Notes under the pieces: generated by a model
What the model saw: only the letters and a program-made list of their open reading frames with translations
Told to the model about the DNA's origin: nothing
Databases searched by the model: none
IMG/VR virus record: IMGVR_UViG_3300030102_003764
Span: 1 to 20,355 of that record
Origin: a virus
Strand: one strand, 5' to 3'
Length of the DNA stretch: 20,355 bases
In this document: in pieces, positions 948-20,355 of the stretch
Numbering within the stretch: position 1 is the first letter of the stretch
Layout: each line of letters starts with the position of its first letter
Made by a program: the position numbers and the translations under genes

Positions 948-3191
948 TTAGTTCAGCAATTCGCTTATGTTCCCCTTGTTATTATACCTTGCAAAGTTAA
1001 TCTTTATTTTTGATTGCTTAACCTCAGGTCTATATAGGTGTCTTTGGTTAGCCATTATAGCCAATCCAGAGCTAATCGACGCATCGTATTTTGTACGATT
1101 ATTTATATCAAACTTAGCCCAATCTTCTAGTGTGGTTGTAAAAGGCATAGACCCCATGTCGCCCGCATCCCTATACTCACCCGTAGTATCTAGGCCCACA
1201 TGCTTTTCTATGTACGACTCTATAGCTGCTGCGTGAGACTGCTTTATGTCCTCAGATGAGTTAGGTATACCACCCAACTCTTTCTCAGTCTTAGAGAGCT
1301 TGTTAAGGTCCTTGTCGGGCCTGTTCATAGAGTACGCCCTATACCCTCTATTCTTGAAGTGGTATAATAGTCTCGGTTTATTGTTCTCCGCAAGTATTGG
1401 CATCCCATAGAATATACATGCCATAAGAACATCCTCGAAGAATATCTCTGCTGTCTGTGGTCTTGCTATATACTCCAAGAAGAATTCATTAGAGGGCCCC
1501 TCGTCCATATGGAACTTAGTCAGTCCGTGTAGTGAGCCGTTTGACGAGCCTCCGCCAACAGTGCCTGATATGTCGTAGGGGTCACACCCAAAAGAACCCA
1601 TATGTTCGTTGCCTGGTCTTTTCCTACCACCCTTCTCTACAATCTTGTTTTGAAGATGTCTAGGCGGAATCCAAGACACTAGAAACCTACCCCTACTATC
1701 AGGACTCCAAACAACCCTACTGTCAGGCCCATCCTTCCAATAGAACTTACCCCTTGTAATATAGTGGTCTCTTATAACCGAGTCGTTATAGTCTATCTGC
1801 TGATATATCTTAGTTAGATTAAATATAGATGACTTACTCTCGTCCCTAAAAGCGTGAGACTCTGTCCTAGGAAACTGACGATAGAACTCGTTCAATGCGT
1901 CCGCATCGTTCTTAAGAGACTTTACTTCGTTATCCCAATACGTAATAGCACCCGTAGATATCATCTCCCCATCGACACCCTCTAGAGCCGTGGTAGGGTT
2001 TTCAAATACTGGCCACCCAAACTTATTTATATAACCCTCAAAGTTCCACTCCATTGGAATAAACAATGAATACAAGCCACTCTTGGTTTGGCCGTTGGGG
2101 TTTCTTGTAGATGGGTCTGAGTCCGTGTATAGTTTCTTGAAGTTGTCACCCCCCTTGTTTAGCGCATTACAGGTTGACCCCATCATACACTTACCAACGA
2201 CACGGCTACCTAGCCTCAAACAGGTCTTGGTCACACGCCAATTATTTAGAATGTTCTCAGGCTTCTCCCACTTACCACTCTCGTCGTGTACTAGCAGTTT
2301 CAGTTTCTCACCATCATAGCTATTATCTGCCGTATTCTTCCAGTCAATAGTGGTGTCGAGGCCATCCATATCATCATCCATAACCTCGTGCATATTCTTC
2401 TTTGTAATCTTGGACGCAGGCACACGAAACGCCAACTCAGTCTTCGGCTTGTCCATACCATCCTGAATAGGCTTGAAGAAGAACGGGTAGTTGTTTGATA
2501 TGGGTACAATCTTGTCTACGAACAACTTCTTGGCATCACCCCCTGTCTTCGATAGTACACCAAGCCTAGAGTCTTTGGCTAGCGTCCCTATGTTAACTGA
2601 TTCCGAGGCCCCCATAAACGAGAAACCTGAACGACGAATCTTTAGGTAGCACATACCAAAACTTCTCTTGTCCGCCTTGCACGCCTCCCAAAAGATGTAG
2701 AATATTCTATTGGCCTCTCTGAAGTCAGGATACCCAACGTCAATCTTAGTCCACTGCAAGTACATATAGTGAGAGCCTGTTAAGTAGGTGGGCTTGCCGT
2801 GATTCATATACCAGAACCCATTCTCCCTATTGTCGAACTCATGCTCTATGTAGTCAACCCACATAGACTTAAAATCAGACGCCATCTCATTCCAATGGAA
2901 GATTGACTTTATTCTGTGTAACTGTTTGGGGTACTCCTTTCGCTCCCAATACTGCTCGTCCTTCTTGTCGCTTCTAGAGTATATCTCCTTGGGGGCTTTA
3001 GGTAGTCCTATGATTAGGCCATTAATATTATATACTTCGCCAAGCGTACCGTCACGAGATATGATTATAATATCGTACTTCTCGTTATAGCCATACTCCC
3101 AACTCTTCCCCTTGTTCTTTTGTCTTATGACCTGCTTGGGGATTCCTGAGTCTACAACTCGATATAAACTATTTTGACCTTCGCTCAGCAA
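948..3191 (-). CDS. terL: Terminase large subunit (DNA-packaging ATPase/nuclease)
   Basis: This 747-residue protein should be the packaging motor: an N-terminal ATPase that drives DNA into the capsid and a C-terminal RNase H-like nuclease that cuts the concatemer. Visible motifs: a deviant Walker A region KIRRSGFSFMGA (about 184-195), which has no classic GxxxxGK[ST]; a Walker B hydrophobic stretch ending in acid residues, KLLVHDE (298-304); a coupling-type GSTC (338-341); a nuclease acid in GCDPYD (535-540, D537); an AENNK segment (601-605); and a late acidic segment LEDWAKFD (688-695). It is somewhat longer than most TerL proteins, as I recall for crAss-like relatives. Its start overlaps the preceding small gene by 23 bases, and the portal ATG follows its stop without a gap, so the genes are co-transcribed and probably translationally coupled. 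Confidence 0.88.
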   Translation of the reverse strand: MLSEGQNSLYRVVDSGIPKQVIRQKNKGKSWEYGYNEKYDIIIISRDGTLGEVYNINGLIIGLPKAPKEIYSRSDKKDEQYWERKEYPKQLHRIKSIFHWNEMASDFKSMWVDYIEHEFDNRENGFWYMNHGKPTYLTGSHYMYLQWTKIDVGYPDFREANRIFYIFWEACKADKRSFGMCYLKIRRSGFSFMGASESVNIGTLAKDSRLGVLSKTGGDAKKLFVDKIVPISNNYPFFFKPIQDGMDKPKTELAFRVPASKITKKNMHEVMDDDMDGLDTTIDWKNTADNSYDGEKLKLLVHDESGKWEKPENILNNWRVTKTCLRLGSRVVGKCMMGSTCNALNKGGDNFKKLYTDSDPSTRNPNGQTKSGLYSLFIPMEWNFEGYINKFGWPVFENPTTALEGVDGEMISTGAITYWDNEVKSLKNDADALNEFYRQFPRTESHAFRDESKSSIFNLTKIYQQIDYNDSVIRDHYITRGKFYWKDGPDSRVVWSPDSRGRFLVSWIPPRHLQNKIVEKGGRKRPGNEHMGSFGCDPYDISGTVGGGSSNGSLHGLTKFHMDEGPSNEFFLEYIARPQTAEIFFEDVLMACIFYGMPILAENNKPRLLYHFKNRGYRAYSMNRPDKDLNKLSKTEKELGGIPNSSEDIKQSHAAAIESYIEKHVGLDTTGEYRDAGDMGSMPFTTTLEDWAKFDINNRTKYDASISSGLAIMANQRHLYRPEVKQSKIKINFARYNNKGNISELLN

Positions 3192-11771: not shown

Positions 11772-12193
11772 TGGAAAATATACTCAAGTACTGGAAGGTG
11801 GTCAGAGAGTGGATGAAAGCCAAGCACGGGCTCACTCAGGCTGACCTAGATATGCTTTTATTCCTCTATGATGAGGGCACATTCAGGCAAGCAGACCTAG
11901 TGAAGTTTGAGAAACTACTATCGTGGGATAGGAAGCGCCAACAGCGCCTTATGGATAATGGATGGATTGCATTGCTGGTAGCAAGAACGCCCAAGCGCAA
12001 CACCACATATAGACTAACAATAAAAGGAAAGAGAGCACTAACAGAAATGTACAAACGCCTCTACGGAGAGGTGTTCGACGAGTCGAACCCCCTCTACCGT
12101 AATGACGCTGGTTACCAAGCCAAAAGATACCGCCGATTTATTGAGAATCTGAATCAGGAGCGCATACAATTACTGCGTCACGGTCACGAATAA
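11771..12193 (+). CDS. Winged-helix (MarR-like) DNA-binding protein
   Basis: This 140-residue protein has a helical start (MENILKYWKVVREWMKAKHG), a DMLLFLYDEGTFRQADLVKF segment, a recognition-helix-like stretch SWDRKRQQRLMDNGWIALLV (about 51-70), and a wing RTPKRNTTYRLTIKGKRAL (72-90). This order (helices, recognition helix, then a Lys/Arg wing with 'YRLTxKGKRAL') is typical of MarR-like winged helices. A gene of this look is common in Bacteroidota phages as I recall. It is divergent from the late block (14 bases between starts), so it may control late transcription. Its 3' end overlaps groES on the other strand by 56 bases. Confidence 0.65.
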   Translation: MENILKYWKVVREWMKAKHGLTQADLDMLLFLYDEGTFRQADLVKFEKLLSWDRKRQQRLMDNGWIALLVARTPKRNTTYRLTIKGKRALTEMYKRLYGEVFDESNPLYRNDAGYQAKRYRRFIENLNQERIQLLRHGHE

Positions 12194-12416
12194 CGGTGAT
12201 AACCATTCCGTCAAACATGGCGTCGTGCCCTGCACTCTTGTCGTAGTAAATAACATCACCCTCCTTTACGCAGGTGACTTTGTCTCCAGCTCCTAGCACA
12301 ATACCTTTATTATATCTGAAATGCAGTGCATCGTCCTCAGACAACAATAAACCGCTCTCGTTTTTGAGCTCTTCCTGAATCTTTTCGATTATTACGTAAT
12401 TATTCACCGCTTTCAT
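12138..12416 (-). CDS. groES: Phage GroES-type co-chaperonin
   Basis: This 92-residue protein fits the GroES fold and length: the N-terminal strand NNYVIIEKIQ, a mobile-loop segment EELKNESGLLLSEDD (about 15-29) with a hydrophobic GLLL tip equivalent to the GIVL of GroES, the core KGIVLGAG then VKEGDVIYYDK, and final strands MVITVIRDRDAVIV. A short polar tail follows. Seven subunits would cap the adjacent phage GroEL to enclose substrate. It follows groEL (17-base overlap), the reverse of the bacterial groES-groEL order. The last 56 bases overlap the convergent winged-helix gene, so the two transcripts could form a short double strand. Confidence 0.88.
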   Translation of the reverse strand: MKAVNNYVIIEKIQEELKNESGLLLSEDDALHFRYNKGIVLGAGDKVTCVKEGDVIYYDKSAGHDAMFDGMVITVIRDRDAVIVCAPDSDSQ

Positions 12417-13998
12417 ATGTTCTTGCTAAAGTTACTATTGCATTTGTACTAAGTATTGTCGTGGCAACCGACACCGCATTCTGTAGTGCGTTCTTCGTTA
12501 CCTTGGCAGGGTCAACGATTCCCATCTCAAACATATCACCATATTGGCTGTTCTTGACGTCATATCCCTGTACACCCCCAAAGAATCCATTCTCGATGAT
12601 GTCTTCTAGGTCGTATCCTGCGTTCTCCACTATCTGAGTGATGGGAGCCCTAAGTGCGTTGCACAAAATCTTACATGCGACACTCTTCTCGTCATCACCA
12701 TCAAATTCATCAACATCACATGTGTTGTTATATAGCGCTACACCCCCTCCAGGGAGTATACCCTCCTCTAGTGCCGACTTAACAGCACACACGGCGTCGT
12801 CTACCCTATCATACAGCTCTTTCTGCTCTATATCGGAGTTACCCCCTACATAAATCACCCCAATGGCTCCTTGGAGCCCTGCAATACGCTTAGAAATGAA
12901 GTCTTTGTCCTGTTTTTTAGACGCTTCCTCTCTTTGAACCTCTAATTCTTCAACTCGCTGCTTGATTTCATCGGTATGCTCATCCCCCCTAATGATAATT
13001 GTCTTATCACGGCTAACAATGACCTTCTCTGCACGGCCTAAGTCCGAAAAATTGGCAAATTGTATGTTGTCACCCGTCTGCTCGGAGAAATACTTAGCCC
13101 CAAGAGCCAATGCAATGTCTCCCATCAGCTCATGCTTACGATATCCGAAGTCTGGTGGTATAATATTGCAGAATTTTAGTCCATTTCTGACCACATTGGC
13201 CGCTAAAGTGTTAATAACGTTGGTTGAGCACGGCCCGATAATCAAAAGTTTCTTTTGGTCGTTAATAATCTTCTTCAAAACGTTCTCTACGCTTATCAGA
13301 TTCGATATCTCTTGGTCTGTTACAAGAACATGCACGTCTTCGAGTATACACTCGTCCCGCTTCTGGTCGTTTACAAACAATGGAGAGGTGTACCCCCTAT
13401 CTAACTGTATCCCTTGAGTAACCTCAGAGGTGGTGTTAGGGGTCTGACTCTTCTCTACAGTAACAATTCCATTCTTTAACCCTACTTTCCTGTAGGTGTC
13501 TGCAATAATCTTCCCTATCTCCTCATCATTATTCGCAGATATGGTGGCTACGTCCTGTAGTCTACGTTGGTTTATCTTAACTGAGTCTTTATCAAGGGCC
13601 TTTATGATGCTTTGCGCCTTCTTATTAATCGCACGTATCACCTCCGTCACATTATGATGGGGCTCAATCAGCCTTAGTCCCTCCATTACAATGGCTTCCG
13701 TCAATACGATGGCTGTTGTAGTTCCATCACCAGACGATAGGGCCGTCCTATCGGCTGCTTCCTTTACCATGCGAACAGCGAGGTTCTCGACAGGGTCGAG
13801 GAGCGCGATGGAGCGAGCCACGGTGACTCCATCCTTTGTGACTGTAATGCCATGCGTATGCTCGTTAGATTCTATAAGGACCGTACGGCCTCTTGGGCCG
13901 AGGGTTGACTTCACTGCCTTAGCTATCTGTTTAATGCCACTAACTAAGCGTTCTCGTGCCTTGTCATCGAAAGACAAGTTCTTTGGTTGGTAATTCAT
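12400..13998 (-). CDS. groEL: Phage GroEL chaperonin (full length)
   Basis: This 532-residue ATP-driven folding cage protein has all main family signatures: LGPRGR (33-38), KDGVTVA (55-61), GDGTTT (90-95), the apical RGYTSPLFVND (201-211), and RVDDA with the ATPase aspartate (D401, equivalent to D398 of E. coli) before GILPGGGVAL. The C-terminus reads TLARTYESGE and lacks the usual Gly-Gly-Met tail that lines the cage floor. Apical substrate/GroES-binding positions are partly conserved. It is the first gene of a minus-strand groEL-groES unit with its promoter presumably in 13999-14060. Phage groEL genes are uncommon and are thought to fold virion proteins. Chaperonin identity is certain; the client is inferred. 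Confidence 0.95.
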   Translation of the reverse strand: MNYQPKNLSFDDKARERLVSGIKQIAKAVKSTLGPRGRTVLIESNEHTHGITVTKDGVTVARSIALLDPVENLAVRMVKEAADRTALSSGDGTTTAIVLTEAIVMEGLRLIEPHHNVTEVIRAINKKAQSIIKALDKDSVKINQRRLQDVATISANNDEEIGKIIADTYRKVGLKNGIVTVEKSQTPNTTSEVTQGIQLDRGYTSPLFVNDQKRDECILEDVHVLVTDQEISNLISVENVLKKIINDQKKLLIIGPCSTNVINTLAANVVRNGLKFCNIIPPDFGYRKHELMGDIALALGAKYFSEQTGDNIQFANFSDLGRAEKVIVSRDKTIIIRGDEHTDEIKQRVEELEVQREEASKKQDKDFISKRIAGLQGAIGVIYVGGNSDIEQKELYDRVDDAVCAVKSALEEGILPGGGVALYNNTCDVDEFDGDDEKSVACKILCNALRAPITQIVENAGYDLEDIIENGFFGGVQGYDVKNSQYGDMFEMGIVDPAKVTKNALQNAVSVATTILSTNAIVTLARTYESGE

Positions 13999-14212
13999 AT
14001 TAAATTTAATTTATGCCACTAATATAGAAATAAAACATGACGACCTGACAACTTTTTTACACTATATACTCTCTTATATATTTTCTTCTCAAATATTTTT
14101 TTAATACTAAATTTTTGACTACTAAAGTCGTCATCTTGTCATAAATGTTGATATATAAGGATATTCTCATCATAAAGTCGTCATAAAATATGATAACTTT
14201 CGTCATAATACT
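13999..14212. promoter_or_regulatory. Divergent intergenic region between groEL and the tRNA block, with CGTCAT repeats
   Basis: These 214 AT-rich bases separate a leftward and a rightward unit and have no coding frame I would trust. They contain AAAGTCGTCAT twice (14124-14134 and 14174-14184, exactly 50 bases apart), a third TTTCGTCAT at 14198-14206 and an inverted ATGACG at 14037-14042. A TTGTCAT at 14137-14143 is a near-copy. The copies flank both start regions, so they look like binding sites for a regulator or for a dedicated polymerase. On the minus strand a TTGTCA followed 19 bases later by TATATT could serve groEL. No canonical TTTG/TAnnTTTG pair is evident. Confidence 0.5.
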
Positions 14213-14286
14213 GCTCCTATAGCTCAACTGGATAGAGCAACTGCCTTCTAAGCAGTAGGTTTCAGGTTCGAGTCCTGATGGGAGTA
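14213..14286 (+). tRNA. tRNA-Arg (anticodon UCU)
   Basis: The cloverleaf can be drawn by hand: acceptor GCTCCTA with TGGGAGT (G1-U72 and one U-G pair), D-stem GCTC/GAGC, anticodon stem ACTGC/GCAGT with loop CTTCTAA giving anticodon TCT, variable AGGTT, T-stem TCAGG/CCTGA with loop TTCGAGT, discriminator A at 14286. CCA is not encoded (CGA follows), so the host CCA-adding enzyme is needed. It would read AGA/AGG codons, common in AT-rich phage genes. It is on the plus strand four bases before the next gene and probably shares its transcript. Confidence 0.93.
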
Positions 14287-14290
14287 CGAG

Positions 14291-14527
14291 GTGAAAACTT
14301 TATTATTTTTTTTGATTACGTCTTGTTGTTACGCACAACATTCGTATTTTGGATTAACACAATCGCAGCTCATGAAGGAATCCAATCGTGACGGCTATCG
14401 GGTTATGACCCAACTTGTATACAGTAATGTCGTCTATACCCTTACTAATGGATGGGACAAAATCATAGTGTCCTACGTTCCTGGTAGAGAGTTGCCATCA
14501 TATATCATATATAGAAAAGAGGAATGA
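14291..14527 (+). CDS. Small secreted protein, probable lipoprotein
   Basis: This 78-residue protein starts at GTG, chosen because it gives a complete signal sequence MKTLLFFLITSCCYAQ. ITSC fits a lipobox, so cleavage before Cys12 and lipid attachment is likely, though ordinary cleavage after Ala15 is possible. The mature part (YFGLTQSQLMKESNRDGYRV, then VVYTLTNGWDKIIVSYVPG) is a small mixed alpha/beta domain that I do not recognise. It follows the tRNA by four bases and overlaps the M23 peptidase start (ATGA at 14524-14527), so the two are translationally coupled. An outer spanin, an exclusion protein or a lysis accessory are all possible roles. Confidence 0.7.
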   Translation: MKTLLFFLITSCCYAQHSYFGLTQSQLMKESNRDGYRVMTQLVYSNVVYTLTNGWDKIIVSYVPGRELPSYIIYRKEE

Positions 14528-15186
14528 GAAATTTTATTTTTAATGTAGTAGTATGCTCCTTTATTGTGGGGCTAATGTTGATTAACGTATATATGTCTAT
14601 GCCTAATACACATACCTTAGAGACGGATTTCTCTTTATGTGTAGGTGAGGGGGGTGTGGATACCACTGAGGTTGAAACTCCCCCTCTCTTTTTGGACACT
14701 ATGTACTCTGAGTATTGTCCGTATATACACTATAGACACGACAGCACTGTTGACTCTATAACACTATACCTAGACTCGTTTGAGTTCCACTCAACGGGTC
14801 ATGTATCTAGTGGCTATGGATGGAGATGGGGTCGTATGCACTACGGAATAGACTACGCAGGATGTAACCGAGACACCTCTCGCTCCGTATGGGATGGAGT
14901 AGTGCGGTATGCTGAGAGAGGGTACAATGGTGGGTACGGGAACTTAGTTGTAGTGAGACACTTCAATGGGTTGGAGACTTACTATGCTCATCACTGGTCG
15001 CTACTTGTGGAGGAGGGTGACACCCTGAGCGCAGGCGATGGGATAGGGATAATAGGGTCGACAGGCAGGTCAACAGGGCCACACCTCCACTTCGAGGTTC
15101 GGTTCCTGGGTGTGCCTATAGACCCTGACCTAGTGAAAGGAGACACGTTAAGATTAATAAAAGATAGATACGACTATGGGGTTTAA
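14524..15186 (+). CDS. M23 (LytM-type) zinc metallopeptidase, cell-wall lytic enzyme
   Basis: This 220-residue protein has an N-terminal hydrophobic segment (about 4-24, FIFNVVVCSFIVGLMLINVY) that would serve as a signal anchor. The catalytic domain (about 90-205) shows the M23 metal ligands: RMHYGIDYA (H106, D110) and GPHLHFEV (H187, H189), with the catalytic YAHHW (H156) between. These enzymes cut peptide crosslinks in peptidoglycan. It could be the phage endolysin or a virion/periplasmic enzyme for entry. The holin genes are in the separate late block. The start overlaps the lipoprotein gene (ATGA), and its stop overlaps the next gene by 11 bases. Confidence 0.9.
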   Translation: MRNFIFNVVVCSFIVGLMLINVYMSMPNTHTLETDFSLCVGEGGVDTTEVETPPLFLDTMYSEYCPYIHYRHDSTVDSITLYLDSFEFHSTGHVSSGYGWRWGRMHYGIDYAGCNRDTSRSVWDGVVRYAERGYNGGYGNLVVVRHFNGLETYYAHHWSLLVEEGDTLSAGDGIGIIGSTGRSTGPHLHFEVRFLGVPIDPDLVKGDTLRLIKDRYDYGV

Positions 15187-15376
15187 GATATTAAAGGAGG
15201 TCTGCGTGGGAGCGGAGACCGTTAAGGTGTATATGCTTGATGAGCTGGGCGAGGTGCTTGAGATGGAGACTACTCAAAAGGCGCTAGACTTCATAGCCAT
15301 ACTTAATCGCAATTCAGATAATAATACAACCTATAAACTAGTATCATGCAAAACCCACACTGGAACGAAAGAGTAA
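15176..15376 (+). CDS. Small conserved phage protein, unknown
   Basis: This 66-residue soluble protein overlaps the peptidase gene by 11 bases. The pattern VKVYMLDELGEVLEMETTQK, then ALDFIAILNRNSDNNTTYKL resembles small phage proteins in which a short strand pair is followed by a helix and an 'N(K/R)NSD...YKV' end. No catalytic motif or membrane segment is present. The next small gene begins inside its 3' end (15346). Confidence 0.6.
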   Translation: MGFKILKEVCVGAETVKVYMLDELGEVLEMETTQKALDFIAILNRNSDNNTTYKLVSCKTHTGTKE

Positions 15377-15519
15377 CTCCCTTCACGGATGCTGCCAAGG
15401 AGAGGGGTGCATCCAAGGAGAGATATTACATCGCTAACAAGATTAACGACATCATAAATAACTCCAAGGACGATAGACAAGCAATTAACTTAATAATAAA
15501 TTTCCTTAAAAATGCTTAG
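15346..15519 (+). CDS. 57-residue protein, unknown
   Basis: This frame runs from ATG 15346-15348 to TAG 15517-15519. The peptide (MQNPHWNERVTPFTDAAKER, then a helical SKERYYIANKINDIINN and IINFLKNA) is soluble and mostly helical. It overlaps the preceding gene by 31 bases and the SET gene by eight, fitting the dense packing here. No family recognised. Confidence 0.55.
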   Translation: MQNPHWNERVTPFTDAAKERGASKERYYIANKINDIINNSKDDRQAINLIINFLKNA

Positions 15520-15922
15520 GGTAGATACTTATTTAAAGAATATAGAGGGGAAGGGTATATCATTAATTTCTAATGAAAAAATAAAAAAGGGTAGCACTGT
15601 GTGGGTTTTTGACCCAATGTTGGATATTATAATTCCATCCTCAATAGTAAAGTCAATTAAAAAAACAGACCATAGCGGAAACTTTACTAAGCTAATAGAA
15701 ACATACTCTGCTTACGATAAAACTAAAGACTGCTATTATCTTAGTATAGACAATTGCAGGTTTATAAATCATTCTTCACAACCAAACATAGAGGAAGACC
15801 CACTAGACAATGAAAGGTTTATAGCTAAACACAACATAATGCCTGGAGATGAAATAACGATTGACTACGAAGTGATATGTGACATTGACAGAGAAAATGG
15901 AACACCTGAAAATTATATATAA
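15512..15922 (+). CDS. SET-domain protein (candidate protein lysine methyltransferase)
   Basis: The 136 residues are essentially one SET domain. Visible: the N-terminal glycine motif IEGKGISLISNEKIKKGSTV (11-30), the central motif CRFINHSSQPNI (82-93, compare RFINHSCxPN), and the active-site/knot motif PGDEITIDYE (111-120) with the usual tyrosine. SET enzymes transfer a methyl group from S-adenosylmethionine to lysine. No pre-SET domain or post-SET zinc cysteines are present, as in other minimal bacterial and viral SET proteins. The substrate is unknown: the lysine-rich small late proteins and host proteins are candidates. It overlaps the upstream small gene by eight bases and abuts the downstream gene. 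Confidence 0.85.
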   Translation: MLRVDTYLKNIEGKGISLISNEKIKKGSTVWVFDPMLDIIIPSSIVKSIKKTDHSGNFTKLIETYSAYDKTKDCYYLSIDNCRFINHSSQPNIEEDPLDNERFIAKHNIMPGDEITIDYEVICDIDRENGTPENYI

Positions 15923-16573
15923 ATGGCTTACATAGAATCTAGTTTCCCACCTGTAGATGTGTGGGTACGTGCTGAATACTTATACGATATGAAATCTCAT
16001 CACGGTGATTTCTTTCTAGGGCGACTCGTATCCGTGAGATGTCTACCAGGGCAAGTGCCCTTATTCCAAGTTCTTCTTGAGAATGGTGTTATGAGAGATA
16101 AGCTCCCATGTTCTGCACTGATAGATAGAAACAAGAATCCTAACGATGTGCCACATATGCCGTTTCATCAGCTGTGCCTATGGAATAGTTTCAGTAAGAC
16201 GTTCTCCGTTGTGAAGCTGGCATATGTAGGAGAGGCAGTGACCTCTGTGTTTATGAAGGACCGAAAGTGGTATGACGGTGAATACCTATGTACGATACAA
16301 TGGGCATCGGAGACTAATGAGAATGCTGATATGTCGCTAAGTGAGACTCCTCACGAGCATAAGTCACATCACGTCATAATACTGGATAACGGTTGCTTCG
16401 CATTACAACCTAATAATAGGGTGCGATGGATTGAACCATCATTCACCACGAAAGATTTTCCAAAGAAGCCTGACTACAAGGTATGCACCCAAACATACAA
16501 TGCTGAGTCGCACGGCAAGTGGATTACTGAGGATAGCGACAACTACTTCTATACTACATGTAACGTTCTCTAA
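15923..16573 (+). CDS. Conserved phage protein of unknown function
   Basis: The product has 216 residues. It opens AYIESSFPPVDVWVRAEYLY and contains SHHGDFFLGRLVSVRCLPGQ, FQVLLENGVMRDKLPCSALI, LQLWNSF-type and VFMKDRKWYDGEYLCTIQWA segments, ending FALQPNNRVRWIEPSFT and WITEDSDNYFY. I remember this protein as widespread in phage genomes from several environments with no assigned function. It is soluble with no signal peptide, and the regular alternation of strands suggests a compact enzyme-like or structural fold. The ATG directly follows the SET stop. The last 20 bases overlap the convergent gene 16733-16554. Confidence 0.75.
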   Translation: MAYIESSFPPVDVWVRAEYLYDMKSHHGDFFLGRLVSVRCLPGQVPLFQVLLENGVMRDKLPCSALIDRNKNPNDVPHMPFHQLCLWNSFSKTFSVVKLAYVGEAVTSVFMKDRKWYDGEYLCTIQWASETNENADMSLSETPHEHKSHHVIILDNGCFALQPNNRVRWIEPSFTTKDFPKKPDYKVCTQTYNAESHGKWITEDSDNYFYTTCNVL

Positions 16574-16733
16574 ACTCATCCATCATGTCTTTGCGTTTCA
16601 TCGCTGAAGTCATCATAGATATCTTCTCTTCCCTCTTCTGCATCTTTTTAAGGGCAGCCAATCGCTGAATCTCAGTTTGGCCTGGTCGAGCGGTGCTCAT
16701 CATACCCTGTGGTGTTAATCTTAGGTCTGTCAT
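16554..16733 (-). CDS. Small Met/Lys-rich helical protein, unknown
   Basis: I chose ATG 16733 (59 residues); the longer frame to 16748 would need a TTG start. The sequence is MTDLRLTPQGMMSTARPGQT followed by helical, Met-rich charged stretches (LAALKKMQKREEKISMMTSA). It stands alone on the minus strand between two plus-strand blocks and overlaps the end of the left one. Its upstream DNA (16734-16890) is AT-rich with several inverted repeats. No family recognised. Confidence 0.5.
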   Translation of the reverse strand: MTDLRLTPQGMMSTARPGQTEIQRLAALKKMQKREEKISMMTSAMKRKDMMDEFRERYM

Positions 16734-16890
16734 AGGGTAAAGGTACAAATTTGACGAGACACTCAGGGGTAACGGGTTATACAGCGCTTTTGTAAAATAT
16801 TTTGCAAAAAGAAAATGATTTTTTTATTGATAGGGGGGGTCTAAAATAAAATATGGTCGGGTAAATTTTTTTGCTTTTTTTACCACCCCA

Positions 16891-16919
16891 GCACAATAAT
16901 ATATAAATGTATACGTTAC
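16891..16919 (+). promoter_or_regulatory. Bipartite promoter-like element, copy 1 (non-coding region)
   Basis: GCACAATA (16891-16898), 14 bases, then ACGTTA (from 16913). Spacing is the same as in the copies upstream of genes at 17903 and 18953. Unlike those, no gene follows; a sequence rich in inverted repeats does. Confidence 0.5.
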
Positions 16920-17012
16920 TGCCTTCTTGCAACGTGGTTGCGTCTAGACATTACGCGTCTTGTTTAGAATGATTCTAATTAAGCAACTGCAAACCTAGCC
17001 ACCTAAAAATAT
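16920..17012 (+). ncRNA. Candidate structured small RNA (downstream of promoter-like copy 1)
   Basis: Starting just after the promoter-like element, the sequence can fold into a three-way arrangement. A closing helix TTGC/GCAA and GTTGC/GCAAC is formed by 16927-16941 with 16983-16992. One hairpin is AGAC/GTCT (16946-16960), and a second comes from the perfect palindrome TTAGAATGATTCTAA (16964-16978). An alternative hairpin GCAAC-GTG-GTTGC competes with the closing helix. No strong terminator with a U-run is visible; AAAAATATTTTT at 17005-17016 is the nearest candidate. It does not match tRNA. The boundaries are inferred from the repeats and are not measured. Confidence 0.3.
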
Positions 17013-17022
17013 TTTTATTCCT

Positions 17023-17051
17023 GCACAATATAGTCGGACGTTTTACGTTAC
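17023..17051 (+). promoter_or_regulatory. Bipartite promoter-like element, copy 2 (non-coding region)
   Basis: GCACAATA (17023-17030), 14 bases, then ACGTTA (from 17045), in the context TACGTTAC shared with copy 1. The two copies start 132 bases apart with different bases between the boxes, so only the boxes and the distance are kept. Confidence 0.5.
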
Positions 17052-17230
17052 CGCGATTTATTCGCTACGTCCATAGATGCGATATAAGGCCTTTTTCCCT
17101 TTCGATGAACAAACACCTTAGGCACTTCGACTTTTGCGCTTAGACGCAATTTAGCCTTTTTTATAACCCCACACGCACACGCACACGAATATTTCAAACT
17201 TTTTTTGCCTTGTAACTTATTGATTATCAA
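17048..17230 (-). CDS. Doubtful small basic ORF in the non-coding stretch
   Basis: A 60-residue, lysine-rich frame with a Cys-Ala-Cys-Ala-Cys run that is simply the translation of a CACACG repeat. It lies on the strand opposite a promoter-like element pointing the other way, and I recognise no family. No neighbour gene competes for the space, so it cannot be excluded, but a plus-strand RNA is an equal explanation. Confidence 0.25.
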   Translation of the reverse strand: MIINKLQGKKSLKYSCACACGVIKKAKLRLSAKVEVPKVFVHRKGKRPYIASMDVANKSR

Positions 17231-17344
17231 CGACTTATAAATTAATTTAAAAAAAATGTAATATCACACAATATACCATGCACTTATGGCGTCTTTATAG
17301 TGACAAAGGCACAAAGCCGATTATCTAACAAACAAACAATAAAG

Positions 17345-17620
17345 ATGAATAACGGATTTAGAAAAGGGGTAGACATGGAATGGACAAAGCAATTAATGAA
17401 GGTATTGGGACAGGACGCCCAATGTCTCGAAGCAATGGTGACTATTTTACCAAAGGAAACAGATGAAGAAATCATTAACGATTGTAAAGAAGCCATTGAA
17501 GAGTTAATCCTCAACATGATTGGAAACGCTCAAGACTTAGTGTCTACACTACAACAGGACAGACTAAATACCAGTCAAGGGAGGTTTCATGTAGAGGAAA
17601 ACGAATTCGCAGGAGAGTAA
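17345..17620 (+). CDS. Small acidic helical protein, first gene of the early-type block
   Basis: I chose ATG 17345 (91 residues) over the GTG at 17300, because it follows an A-rich leader AACAAACAAACAATAAAG like those of the genes downstream. The protein is acidic and helical (MEWTKQLMKVLGQDAQCLEA, then ETDEEIINDCKEAIEELILN) without membrane segments. A degenerate promoter-like element (CACAATA at 17267, GCGTCTTTATA at 17289) lies upstream. A G/C hairpin follows its stop. Unknown family; small acidic early phage proteins often bind host factors, but this is inference. Confidence 0.7.
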   Translation: MNNGFRKGVDMEWTKQLMKVLGQDAQCLEAMVTILPKETDEEIINDCKEAIEELILNMIGNAQDLVSTLQQDRLNTSQGRFHVEENEFAGE

Positions 17621-17629
17621 ACCAAAAAA

Positions 17630-17645
17630 GCCCCCGCAAGGGGGC
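17630..17645. terminator. G/C hairpin with GCAA loop after the first early-type gene
   Basis: GCCCCC (17630-17635), GCAA loop, GGGGGC (17640-17645). Six bases of A precede it, so on the minus strand it reads as a classical hairpin plus TTTTTT terminator. On the plus strand no U-run follows. It may block antisense transcription or act on the plus strand by another mechanism. The following promoter-like element begins in its last base. Confidence 0.6.
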
Positions 17646-17686
17646 AATAAAACCAAACAACAGAACGTTATAATATAAAACAAACA
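17645..17686 (+). promoter_or_regulatory. Bipartite promoter-like element, copy 3
   Basis: CAATA (17645-17649, first box overlapping the hairpin), 15 bases, ACGTTA (from 17665), then TAATATAAAAC and AAACA leader, ATG at 17689. Confidence 0.55.
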
Positions 17687-17688
17687 AT

Positions 17689-17865
17689 ATGAATAAGCAA
17701 GATAAAATTTACAACGCAATAGAGAACGCCAAAACATTACGCAATGAAATTCTATGGAAAGGACTAACAAGCGACGAAGAATTAAGCGAAGACTTGCAAA
17801 TAGCTTTTGAAGATGTAAGCCTAGCAATAGTAGAACTTCAAAGAATTTACGAGCGAACACAATAA
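17689..17865 (+). CDS. 58-residue acidic helical protein, unknown
   Basis: This frame runs from ATG 17689 to TAA 17863-17865. The peptide (MNKQDKIYNAIENAKTLRNE, then SDEELSEDLQIAFEDVSLAI) is acidic and helical. It is preceded at fixed distance by a bipartite promoter-like element, and its last codons (ACA CAA TAA) form the first box of the next copy. No family recognised. Confidence 0.65.
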   Translation: MNKQDKIYNAIENAKTLRNEILWKGLTSDEELSEDLQIAFEDVSLAIVELQRIYERTQ

Positions 17866-17900
17866 ACCAAAATCTTAAACGTTAATATATAAAACAAACA
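17858..17900 (+). promoter_or_regulatory. Bipartite promoter-like element, copy 4
   Basis: CACAATA (17858-17864, overlapping the end of the preceding gene), 14 bases, ACGTTA (17879-17884), ATATATAAAAC and AAACA leader, ATG at 17903. Confidence 0.6.
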
Positions 17901-17902
17901 TC

Positions 17903-18196
17903 ATGAAGAATTCAATTAAAACAGAACTATTAGAGCATATCAATGAAAGTCAAAAGGATGGATTAAAAACCCATGATGAAATGTTCAATCAAGACTATTA
18001 CATCATAGGATATTACCAAAGTAGCCAATGGTTAAAAGAGCATGGATTAGGCGAACTTGAGGCGGCAAACATTTGCTATGAATTTCAACGTTCACACATT
18101 GGAGAGGTGACCACCTTTGACAATACCGAAACATTGGTTAATCATTTGGTCTATTGGTACGGTCTTGAATTGTGCAACGAATTAAACATTGACTAA
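17903..18196 (+). CDS. 97-residue protein, unknown
   Basis: The protein is soluble and mixed alpha/beta (LLEHINESQKDGLKTHDEMF, QDYYIIGYYQSSQWLKEHGL, then LVNHLVYWYGLELCNELNID). Several aromatic residues and one Cys near each of residues 58 and 92 are visible; no catalytic motif is evident. It has its own promoter-like element at fixed spacing. Such short acidic proteins are common early or accessory phage products. Family not recognised. Confidence 0.7.
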   Translation: MKNSIKTELLEHINESQKDGLKTHDEMFNQDYYIIGYYQSSQWLKEHGLGELEAANICYEFQRSHIGEVTTFDNTETLVNHLVYWYGLELCNELNID

Positions 18197-18197
18197 A

Positions 18198-18240
18198 CAC
18201 AATAAACTGAAAACATTAAACGTTAATATATAAAAGCAAT
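18198..18240 (+). promoter_or_regulatory. Bipartite promoter-like element, copy 5
   Basis: CACAATA (18198-18204), 15 bases, ACGTTA (18220-18225), ATATATAAAAGCAAT leader, ATG at 18245. The leader differs from the AAACAAACA type. Confidence 0.55.
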
Positions 18241-18244
18241 AGAT

Positions 18245-18415
18245 ATGATACATTTTTCAAAGGAAGATTTACAGGTGATTGTCAAGGTATACCGAGAGCA
18301 TTTCAACTACCCACCTGTCGAGGGGGATGATGTTTTGACTCAACATGACTTAGACGCGCTATACAAGAAAATAGCAATAGAGGATATTTCGAGATTATTT
18401 AACACTAAACAATAG
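18245..18415 (+). CDS. 56-residue protein, unknown
   Basis: This frame runs from ATG 18245 to TAG 18413-18415. The peptide (MIHFSKEDLQVIVKVYREHF, then VEGDDVLTQHDLDALYKKIA) is acidic and mostly helical. It is followed six bases later by a short membrane protein without its own promoter-like element, so these two are likely one transcript. Confidence 0.6.
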   Translation: MIHFSKEDLQVIVKVYREHFNYPPVEGDDVLTQHDLDALYKKIAIEDISRLFNTKQ

Positions 18416-18420
18416 AACAC

Positions 18421-18543
18421 ATGAACACAATTTATTTAACAATCGGATTAGCTATGGGTTCGCCTGTAGTGTTTGGGGTGGCAAAAATTTTCTACACCGT
18501 ATTTAGTGGCAATATGCCCGATTACTGGATGTCTACAATTTAA
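18421..18543 (+). CDS. 40-residue membrane peptide
   Basis: This frame runs from ATG 18421 to TAA 18541-18543. One hydrophobic span (MNTIYLTIGLAMGSPVVFGV) is followed by an amphipathic part ending PDYWMSTI. It lacks its own promoter-like copy and lies six bases after the preceding gene, so they are probably co-transcribed. It could be a small inner-membrane exclusion or inhibitor peptide, which is speculation. Confidence 0.55.
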   Translation: MNTIYLTIGLAMGSPVVFGVAKIFYTVFSGNMPDYWMSTI

Positions 18544-18600
18544 TTGTTTGTTTGTGCATCCCCCCTAAGGGGGGGGTGTTCACACTCACGCACACAATAA
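18544..18600 (+). terminator. Terminator-plus-promoter cassette, copy A (TTTG repeat, G/C hairpin)
   Basis: TTGTTTGTTTGTGC (18544-18557), hairpin CCCCCC-TAA-GGGGGG (18560-18574), then GTGTTCACACTCAC, leading into the next promoter-like box. An almost identical cassette is found at 19670-19726. No U-run follows the hairpin. Confidence 0.6.
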
Positions 18601-18637
18601 ACTTGAAACACAAACGTTATAATAATAAATAGAACAC
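18593..18637 (+). promoter_or_regulatory. Bipartite promoter-like element, copy 6
   Basis: CACAATA (18593-18599), 14 bases, ACGTTA (18614-18619), TAATAATAAATAGAACAC leader, ATG at 18638. Confidence 0.6.
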
Positions 18638-18904
18638 ATGGAACGCAAACAACAAATAGAGAGAATGTGGGAATTAAGTCAAAAATGTCGTAAAATATAC
18701 GAGGGTATTGATTTAGATAGATATCATGACTGGATGGTATATCAACTAGAGGGGATGTACGAACATATACAGGAAGCAGAAGTAATAGAACTTGAATATT
18801 TTGAAAGCTATGTAAAAGATATTGAAGATACTTACAAGTGGTTTCAACACGTTAAAAAGATATGGGAACTTGAAACCTCTTTACCTGAATCAATTTTTGG
18901 ATAA
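18638..18904 (+). CDS. 88-residue acidic protein, unknown
   Basis: A helical, Glu- and Trp/Tyr-rich soluble protein (MERKQQIERMWELSQKCRKI, YHDWMVYQLEGMYEHIQEAE, then DIEDTYKWFQHVKKIWELET). The long regular charge pattern suggests a helical bundle or coiled coil. It has its own promoter-like element after the hairpin cassette. Family not recognised. Confidence 0.7.
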   Translation: MERKQQIERMWELSQKCRKIYEGIDLDRYHDWMVYQLEGMYEHIQEAEVIELEYFESYVKDIEDTYKWFQHVKKIWELETSLPESIFG

Positions 18905-18907
18905 TAG

Positions 18908-18950
18908 CACAATAAACTAGAAAACTAAACGTTATAATATAAAACAAACA
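18908..18950 (+). promoter_or_regulatory. Bipartite promoter-like element, copy 7 (most typical copy)
   Basis: GCACAATA (18907-18914), 14 bases, ACGTTA (18929-18934), TAATATAAAAC and AAACA leader, ATG at 18953. Confidence 0.65.
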
Positions 18951-18952
18951 AC

Positions 18953-19660
18953 ATGAAAAGTTATACATACACAGACGGGAAAGTCATCCATTCGCTAGAC
19001 TTGAAAGTATCGCAAAATTCTAAAATTGGTATCGGGTTGGTATTGCAGACATATCATTTTAGCCTTGAACAGGTGCAACAAAACGACTTCACACTTGACG
19101 CTTCAAACTGTTTAGATTGTCCCTTTAGTTACAATCAAAATAACGGCAAATCTGGAGGGTGCTACACTCACAAAGGATTGCAGTTGATGGGGTTAAAATC
19201 TAAACTTCGAAGCCTTAACAAGAAACTAAGCAACGGCAAGTTAAAACAATTCGACGCAAAGGAATTCAAGAAATTTATTGACTTCGCAAAGAATAAGGTT
19301 AGCCCTAAATTAATTCGCTTCGGGGCGTATGGCGAAGCCGTAACGCTTGAAGCCCCAATACGTGACGCGCTTTTTAGATTGGCTAGCGACGTACGGGCAA
19401 AAGTTACGGGATACACCCATCAATGGCATAAGGTAAGTGAGACACGTTTCATGGCATCGGCTCACACCCTTGCAGAGATGGTTGAGGCTAGGGCTAGGGG
19501 TTATCGCTCATTCATTGTGAGTGATGATGAAATTTCGGAGGGTTTCAATTGCCCTGCGTCCGCTGAAAGTGGCAAGAAAAAAACGTGCCTGGAGTGTGGT
19601 TTATGTAGCGGCACCTTCGGCGGTAAAAAGAAAAAGGATATATATATCCTTCAACATTAG
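18953..19660 (+). CDS. Seven-cysteine conserved protein of phages and plasmids (DUF7227-like)
   Basis: The product has 235 residues. Cysteines lie in two groups: NCLDCPFS (C53, C56) with GGCYTHKG (C70), and FNCPASAESGKKKTCLECGL with CSG (C200, C212, C215, C218). Between them are RFGAYGEAVTLE (122-133), GYTHQWHK (153-160) and FMASAHTLAEMVEARARGYR (166-185). I remember this family (often as DUF7227) from phages and mobile plasmids, with 'xRFGAYG', 'TGYTHQW', 'MAS' and 'CPAS..GK...C..C.LC.G' conserved. The cysteines suggest a metal (zinc or iron-sulfur) site. Its reaction is not known to me. It has its own promoter-like element and is followed by a hairpin cassette. Confidence 0.75.
   Translation: MKSYTYTDGKVIHSLDLKVSQNSKIGIGLVLQTYHFSLEQVQQNDFTLDASNCLDCPFSYNQNNGKSGGCYTHKGLQLMGLKSKLRSLNKKLSNGKLKQFDAKEFKKFIDFAKNKVSPKLIRFGAYGEAVTLEAPIRDALFRLASDVRAKVTGYTHQWHKVSETRFMASAHTLAEMVEARARGYRSFIVSDDEISEGFNCPASAESGKKKTCLECGLCSGTFGGKKKKDIYILQH
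19634..19651. repeat. 18-base perfect palindrome at the end of the Cys-rich gene
   Basis: AAGGATATATATATCCTT lies in the last codons (Lys-Asp-Ile-Tyr-Ile-Leu), nine bases before the stop. It could be a transcript hairpin or a protein-binding site. Confidence 0.8.
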
Positions 19661-19669
19661 ATGTTTTGT

Positions 19670-19726
19670 TTGTTTGTTTGTGCGCCCCCTCCTGGAGGGG
19701 GGGTGTTCACACTCACACACACAATA
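19670..19726 (+). terminator. Terminator-plus-promoter cassette, copy B
   Basis: TTGTTTGTTTGTGC (19670-19683), hairpin CCCCCTCC-T-GGAGGGGG (19685-19701), then GTGTTCACACTCAC and CACAATA of the next promoter-like element. It shares the flanks of copy A but has a different hairpin sequence with pairing preserved, which supports function of the hairpin. Confidence 0.6.
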
Positions 19727-19762
19727 AAAGAATAAACACAACGTTATAATATAAAACAAACA
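19720..19762 (+). promoter_or_regulatory. Bipartite promoter-like element, copy 8
   Basis: CACAATA (19720-19726), 14 bases, ACGTTA (19741-19746), TAATATAAAAC and AAACA leader, ATG at 19765. Confidence 0.6.
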
Positions 19763-19764
19763 AC

Positions 19765-20127
19765 ATGAATAAAAATAAATTAAAATGTCAACTGGATAAT
19801 ATTACAGCGTGTGACATAGTAGTGAGTAGGATATTTGACTGTGTATCTTATTGGAATAGGGAGGGCGATTCGATATTTCAAAGGGAGGTATTGGGCAGGA
19901 TAGATTCTGAGGATGCTGAGCAGTACGCCATAAAAAATGCAACAAGTCACTGGCTAATGGATATGATATACAAAGATTGCGAATTCGTAATGAGCTATGC
20001 CCATGAACTTGCTGAATGCAGTAAAGGGGCGTATGAATTCGGAAGGTCTGGGTCACATATATGGTTGCATAAGGATGGCGAAAGGATTGCAATGATAACC
20101 TGTATTAACAATAAACTTGAAAACTAA
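19765..20127 (+). CDS. 120-residue protein, unknown
   Basis: A soluble, mixed-charge protein (LDNITACDIVVSRIFDCVSY, DSEDAEQYAIKNATSHWLMD, then GRSGSHIWLHKDGERIAMIT). Several Cys (8, 16, 26, 72, 85, 113 or so) are scattered rather than arranged as a metal site. Its last codons (Asn-Asn-Lys-Leu-Glu-Asn) are also the first box and spacer of the next promoter-like element, an overlap of coding and regulatory sequence. Family not recognised. Confidence 0.65.
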   Translation: MNKNKLKCQLDNITACDIVVSRIFDCVSYWNREGDSIFQREVLGRIDSEDAEQYAIKNATSHWLMDMIYKDCEFVMSYAHELAECSKGAYEFGRSGSHIWLHKDGERIAMITCINNKLEN

Positions 20128-20150
20128 ACGTTAAACTATTAAACAATAAA
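20107..20150 (+). promoter_or_regulatory. Bipartite promoter-like element, copy 9
   Basis: AACAATA (20107-20113), 14 bases, ACGTTA (20128-20133), then an A/T-rich AACTATTAAACAATAAA leader, ATG at 20153. The first box and spacer are inside the preceding gene. Confidence 0.5.
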
Positions 20151-20152
20151 TT

Positions 20153-20355
20153 ATGAATGATAACAAACTAATCGCAGAATTTATGGGTATTGAATGCGGA
20201 GATTATATTACTCCACATTACCATTGTAATTGGGAGGAGTTGATTAAAGTGGTGGCTAAGATAACACGAAATGAAAAGTATTTGGGGAATGATTACCGAG
20301 AACATCTAATGGATGTTGTTCCATACGGATACGTAGAAGATACCTACGATGCAGT
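20153..20355 (+). CDS. Small conserved phage protein (N-terminal part, runs off the window)
   Basis: The open frame from ATG 20153 continues past the right edge; 67 codons are visible. The start MNDNKLIAEFMGIECGDYIT followed by HYHCNWEELIKVVAKITR matches what I remember of a short family common in Bacteroidota phages ('NKLIAEFMG...Y..sW..LM.VV.KI'), function unknown. It has a promoter-like element at fixed spacing. The C-terminal part is not in the window. Confidence 0.7.
   Translation, partial: MNDNKLIAEFMGIECGDYITPHYHCNWEELIKVVAKITRNEKYLGNDYREHLMDVVPYGYVEDTYDA

Follow-up and report, generated by a model that had tools for sequence, protein, structure and literature searches.

A two-box promoter-like element ahead of putative phage early genes recurs beside an ECF sigma factor gene of Flavobacteriaceae

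The DNA analyzed here (the window) comprises the 20,355 nucleotides of IMG/VR virus record IMGVR_UViG_3300030102_003764, a 20.4-kb phage fragment. Its right-hand block of small, putative early genes carries a repeated element made of box 1 (ACAATAAA) and box 2 (ACGTTA), 14 or 15 bases apart and shortly upstream of ATG codons. The same boxes are conserved in Flavobacteriaceae between the gene of an extracytoplasmic function (ECF) sigma factor and that of a 47-residue protein starting MAKLY (MAKLY, hereafter). These sequence comparisons suggest that the phage early genes are probably read by host RNA polymerase carrying the host ECF sigma factor encoded between uvrA and MAKLY.

The two-box element in the window and its relatives

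The pattern ACAATA-N14/15-ACGTTA has eight exact matches in the window, all on the plus strand, against 0.03 expected, and none of 100 shuffled windows reached eight. An earlier note on this DNA had reported the element before seven genes (17689, 17903, 18245, 18638, 18953, 19765 and 20153), with five spacers of 14 bases and two of 15. We located the box pairs at each of them, with the box variants and spacers as described, and the end of box 2 lies 18–19 bases from the ATG at all seven (Table 1). Three sites are missing from that list, namely exact copies at positions 16893 and 17025 and, at position 17268, a variant with CGTC. Box 1 sometimes falls in the end of the preceding gene, as had been noticed, overlapping it at 17859 and lying inside it at 20108. 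Gene 18421, which has no copy of its own, looks like a downstream operon gene.

The element is common to four records only, namely the window, G001 (58 kb, near-complete), G049 (27 kb) and G050 (49 kb), and was absent from 46 other terminase relatives. A search of the viral collection with an extended pattern returned G001, G049, G050 and one further contig, apparently an accidental match. The motif search in relatives that the earlier note had advised revealed, on the coding strand, enrichment over chance immediately 5′ of gene starts. When spacers of 13–16 bases were allowed, the four phages had 43 sites, 42 of them with a spacer of 14 or 15. Box 2 is in fact nCGTT[A/t/c], with ACGTTT or ACGTTC at some sites, and in G001 and G050 it lies 17–22 or exactly 7 bases from the ATG.

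Between the window, G001 and G050, orthologous early promoters have retained their boxes while the spacers have changed. The orthologs of the gene 17903 promoter in G001 and G050 have the same boxes and a different spacer; in the G001 ortholog of the gene 18638 promoter the spacer is N15 and the ATG follows box 2 by 7 bases, and in that of the gene 18953 promoter box 2 is GCGTTA. These comparisons uphold the earlier view that selection, and not duplication alone, maintains the element. Spacer types are nevertheless partly shared by non-orthologous genes (e.g., AACCAAAATCTTAA ahead of window gene 17903 and at G001r 3042), and early gene content differs strongly among the window, G049 and G050, the late DNA of which is about 85–93% identical. 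Recurring spacers and shuffled early gene content imply that cassettes also move, so that copying or recombination contributes as well.

De novo motif discovery in the other relatives returned a host-type TATCTTTG or, in MW202828.1, a palindrome; the two-box motif was not among the motifs found. The 16-bp palindrome of MW202828.1 (L091/L093), GTGTCGTTAACGACAC, has 14 sites in the early region (record positions 43747-55156). It often lies 30–37 bases 5′ of an ATG, also occurs within genes, and is perhaps an operator.

The host element and its cross-prediction of the phage sites

We scanned 84,980 prokaryote genomes with the phage-derived pattern CAATA-N14/15-ACGTTA-WWATATAAA. This matched 42 stretches, 35 of them in Bacteroidota. 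Among 26 independent Bacteroidota sites, 15 lay 5–60 bases before a gene start, when compared with 3 of 24 AT-rich control sites of the same DNA and none of 7 motif sites in other phyla. A repeated Prevotellaceae-type element (L135, L146, L148, L150, L157, L164 and L173) carries CAATA-N15-ACGTTA-WAATATAAACATCTGC and lies near contig ends in several genomes.

Two of the matches precede orthologs of MAKLY. It was the phage motif that first drew attention to this gene, but neither its homologs nor the sigma neighbor was chosen by motif: the homologs, found in 28 of 41 Flavobacteriaceae genomes, were gathered by protein similarity. They have the same two boxes upstream. In 26 of the 28 loci the gene directly upstream of MAKLY, on the same strand, encodes an ECF sigma factor of 194–196 residues (Sigma70_r2, E about 1e-13; Sigma70_r4_2, about 1e-12), and uvrA lies on the other side of the sigma gene in 5 of 5 regions. 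The promoter-like element starts directly after the sigma stop codon, and a motif-free alignment of the DNA past this codon retained only acAATAaa and CGTTa as conserved. The host element thus consists of ACAATAAA and CGTTA, 14 bases apart in 23 of 24 sites and 15 in one, with 24–30 bases to the ATG. CGTT is present in 24 of 24 aligned host sites by construction, as it served as anchor, and it is conserved in the motif-free alignment too. In the regions read by eye, TAnnTTTG-like sequences lie upstream of the ECF sigma gene itself.

A matrix was then built from the 24 host sites alone. Its top nine positions in the window coincided with the seven gene promoters plus the two exact copies in the non-coding gap, and with nothing else (scores 18.1–22.2, the next position scoring 14.2). 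At a threshold of 16 the matrix found 33 sites in the four phages (about 155 kb), 30 of them on the early strand, and one site in 357 kb of six relatives that lack the motif. The matches were concentrated at spacers of 14 or 15, and the GCGTTA promoter of G001, missed by the phage-derived pattern, was recovered. In the window and G050 the real matrix had 14 matches, when compared with a mean of 0.1 for column-permuted matrices.

These data bear on two other accounts of the repeats. It is extremely unlikely that they reflect recent duplication of gene cassettes only, with a coincidental likeness to the host: the recurrence of some spacers before non-orthologous genes and the shuffled early gene content would fit, but the boxes and the distance between them are retained although most spacer sequences differ, orthologs included, and a matrix made from host sites selects exactly the phage sites. 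We also give very little weight to an RNA-level 5′-leader element (a translation enhancer, or a processing or protein-binding site). The short fixed distance to the ATG at many phage sites, and the fact that box 1 can fall in a preceding gene, would accord with such an element. However, the distance varies (7, 17–22, or 24–30 bases in hosts), the boxes are not mutually complementary, and the spacer may have any sequence but is of fixed length, as with sigma factors bound to DNA. The two conserved gap copies, having no nearby gene start, favor a promoter over a translation signal. The proposal of a promoter, made in the earlier note, is well supported by (i) position at gene starts; (ii) strand bias; (iii) the copies without an open reading frame; and (iv) identity with a conserved host intergenic element.

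Candidate readers of the element

ECF promoters consist of a pair of short boxes, separated by a nearly constant distance, with a CGT-core −10 element, and the small target sets of these factors typically include the gene beside the sigma gene. A −10 box with CGTT and a spacer of narrowly fixed length fit this class. The phage element shares the two boxes, the near-fixed distance and the CGT-core −10 with promoters of group 4 ECF factors, e.g., of the Bacillus SigW/SigM type. It differs in that box 1 (ACAATAAA) is without the usual AAC-type −35 and in that many phage genes are preceded by it, and its recognition by an ECF factor is predicted.

The primary promoter of Bacteroidota, recognized by sigma-ABfr, has TTTG at −33 and TAnnTTTG at −7 (PMC7366714). 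The phage element resembles it in where its boxes lie (near −33 and near −10) and in the predicted use of host RNA polymerase, but neither box matches. Host-type TAnnTTTG boxes stand before late genes of the window, G001 and relatives, and none was found at the early sites, in agreement with the earlier statement that the element is unlike the primary promoter. A reading of the opposite strand as a sigma-ABfr promoter was rejected, since inspection found no TAnnTTTG there. A second promoter class of Bacteroides thetaiotaomicron, PM2 (promoter motif 2), is described as near-palindromic (PMC7366714), with elements at −10 and −30 and a factor called elusive (PMC11697453). The phage element is alike in being a second class with −10/−30 elements, a comparison drawn from the published description.

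We propose that each element is the core promoter of one early transcription unit, box 1 lying at about −33 and box 2 (nCGTTA) at about −12 to −8, and that both would be read by the ECF holoenzyme. Transcription would start about 7–8 bases past box 2, and the leader, some 10 bases long and rich in A and C, would suit translation in Bacteroidota; where the ATG follows box 2 by 7 bases, the message would be leaderless. Late genes would be read from primary-sigma TAnnTTTG promoters, early and late expression being separated by the host sigma factor used. The chain would run from primary sigma to ECF sigma and on to MAKLY and the phage early genes, with late genes returning to primary sigma. We infer ECF sigma binding, the start site and early timing alike, and the link to the sigma factor comes from position and conservation.

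Two phage-encoded readers have to be weighed. It is very improbable that a virion-carried or early phage RNA polymerase of the N4, crAss-like or P23-45 type reads the motif and leaves late genes to host polymerase. An early-unique and a late host promoter class would resemble the logic of N4. In relatives a protein of 1800–3900 aa in the virion block closes the late block, and P23-45 has a virion RNA polymerase (vRNAP) with an AT-rich promoter (PMC10770324). However, the giant protein is mosaic and poorly conserved; it was rejected as a polymerase because it has no DxDxD in G001 and no polymerase match in PDB, Pfam or PHROGs. Neither an RNA polymerase nor a sigma factor was found among 62 G001 proteins and the giant virion protein with Pfam and PHROGs. 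Moreover, a phage-only polymerase leaves unexplained the same element behind the host ECF gene. The vRNAP promoters of N4, P23-45 and crAss-like phages are thus comparable in forming an early class distinct from the late one, but differ in that G001 has no polymerase gene that we could find and in that the element exists in hosts. The phage RNA polymerase suggested as a reader in the earlier note accordingly finds no backing, and the interpretation given in that note stands in part, i.e., for a promoter and against the primary sigma factor.

The alternative offered with it, a host polymerase reprogrammed by the phage, has somewhat better prospects but is still unlikely. The phage factor, unrecognized and either sigma-like or an activator, would be synthesized early or delivered with the virion, and would imitate or displace the ECF sigma factor. 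Many of the early proteins belong to no known family, the virion block includes some proteins specific to the clade, and the G001 matches, besides replication, recombination and structural proteins, include helix-turn-helix proteins of DnaA-C type. Against this, no sigma factor was present among the scanned G001 proteins, the phages yielded no homolog of the host ECF sigma factor (best E 0.65), and with boxes that are already a host element no phage factor is needed. Because the same boxes and spacing are conserved behind the host ECF gene, reading by the host ECF holoenzyme in unaltered form is the simpler account.

Several observations weigh against recognition by the host ECF sigma factor. 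Spacers are rich in T in the hosts and in A in the phages. The matrix was derived from a host alignment that took.CGTT and the best match to ACAATA as its anchors, a source of mild bias. A sigma gene adjoining the motif is no proof of recognition. We infer the presence of the sigma factor in the phage host from Flavobacterium, Cellulophaga, Tenacibaculum and Maribacter as hosts of related phages. Finally, ACAATAAA-N12-14-ACGTTA was not in excess in 60 Flavobacteriaceae genomes (15 matches vs. 38 for the reversed control), and a stricter form gave 2 vs. 2 in 395 Bacteroidota genomes. A large host regulon was rejected for this lack of excess over the reversed control; a host regulon would be very small, and the argument is left on one conserved host site. 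Small target sets are common for ECF factors.

As a rule, a phage begins infection from copies of the primary promoter of its host or by means of a polymerase of its own. The chances seem evenly balanced that a lytic phage lineage has instead entrusted nearly its whole early program to a single host ECF sigma factor of the stress type and its late genes to the primary one, using a host envelope- or stress-sensing switch as infection trigger and exposing a nearly invisible regulon of that sigma factor. If so, the start of infection would be tied to the stress state of the host, which might explain why infection is resisted or delayed by some flavobacteria, and the early/late switch would need no phage factor. 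A target promoter is thereby proposed for a conserved, apparently uncharacterized Flavobacteriaceae ECF sigma factor beside uvrA. A literature search, incomplete in coverage, showed among the titles listed no direct precedent for the use of ECF sigma factors at early promoters of phages.

In T4, cassettes with a repeated early promoter, often beside a hairpin, lie at gene borders among shuffled small genes. The phage described here may be comparable, with its repeated early promoter at gene borders and its shuffled small genes, although hairpins are present at only three of the seven window sites; in contrast, the early promoters of T4 are modeled on the primary sigma promoter of its host, and the element here is of ECF type. 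Mobile regulatory cassettes have been reported in T4-type phages (Arbiol 2010, as cited in PMC4177764).

The non-coding gap and other features of the window

Table 1. Positions of promoter-like sites and other features in the window
Feature	Position	Strand	Details
Terminase large subunit	948..3191	-	Placed near MW202828.1, Elemovirus and Cellulophaga phages
Conserved non-coding control region, three tandem promoter-like sites	16750..17340		Alignment with G049 and G050
Exact copy, no nearby gene start	16893..16918	+	Host-matrix score 19.8; kept in G049, and in G050 with ACGTTT
Second exact copy, no nearby gene start	17025..17050	+	Score 18.1; kept in G049 (ACGTTT) and G050 (ACGTTC)
Variant ACAATA-N15-GCGTCT	17268..17294	+	About 50 bases 5′ of first early gene (ATG 17346); kept in G049 and G050
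Early block, small genes mostly without assigned function	17300..20355	+	Variable among close relatives
Early promoter, gene 17689	17644..17670	+	GCAATA 17644-17649, N15, ACGTTA 17665-17670; score 19.3
AT-rich tract and A/C-rich leader TAATATAAAACAAACAAT ahead of ATG (example)	17671..17688	+	Likely start site and leader
Early promoter, gene 17903	17859..17884	+	ACAATA, N14, ACGTTA 17879; score 22.2; box 1 overlaps gene 17689 stop codon
Early promoter, gene 18245	18199..18225	+	ACAATA, N15, ACGTTA 18220; score 21.2
Early promoter, gene 18638	18594..18619	+	ACAATA, N14, ACGTTA 18614; score 22.2
Early promoter, gene 18953 (DUF7227-like)	18909..18934	+	ACAATA, N14, ACGTTA 18929; score 22.2
Early promoter, gene 19765	19721..19746	+	ACAATA, N14, ACGTTA 19741; score 22.2
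Early promoter, gene 20153	20108..20133	+	ACAATA, N14, ACGTTA 20128; score 22.2; box 1 within preceding gene

The first exact copy in the gap may be the promoter of an untranslated RNA or may serve the early block. The CGTC variant is only tentatively a promoter site, given its low matrix score of 9.0. T-runs follow the two ORF-less sites in window 16893-17340, and this segment may encode small RNAs; no Rfam family exceeded the threshold in the gap. The tract ahead of gene 17689 likely comprises a start site and a leader suited to Bacteroidota translation.

GC-rich hairpins lie just 5′ of three of the seven promoters (window 17630-17645, about 18560-18576 and about 19684-19703), with no T-run after them on the plus strand. 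Similar hairpins precede early genes in L122 and L124, which lack the motif. An orthologous ACAATAAAGG element lies on the minus strand at window 14546 (-) and G049r 23945 (-); it has a full-site score in G049, and in the window its box 2 is decayed (ACATTA).

The terminase large subunit of the window phage is 73% identical to that of MW202828.1 and about 46% to that of Elemovirus of Flavobacterium, with further matches in phages of Cellulophaga, Tenacibaculum and Maribacter. The minus strand of the window carries structural genes, GroES and GroEL; the phage GroEL and GroES-like gene (12138-13998) are kept among relatives. Nothing but one tRNA scored above the Rfam gathering threshold in window 14000-20355; a tRNA-Arg (TCT) at 14213-14287 is present in G001, G049 and G050 too. 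Window 15512-15922 encodes a SET-domain protein (Pfam E 7e-11), here in a bacterial virus.

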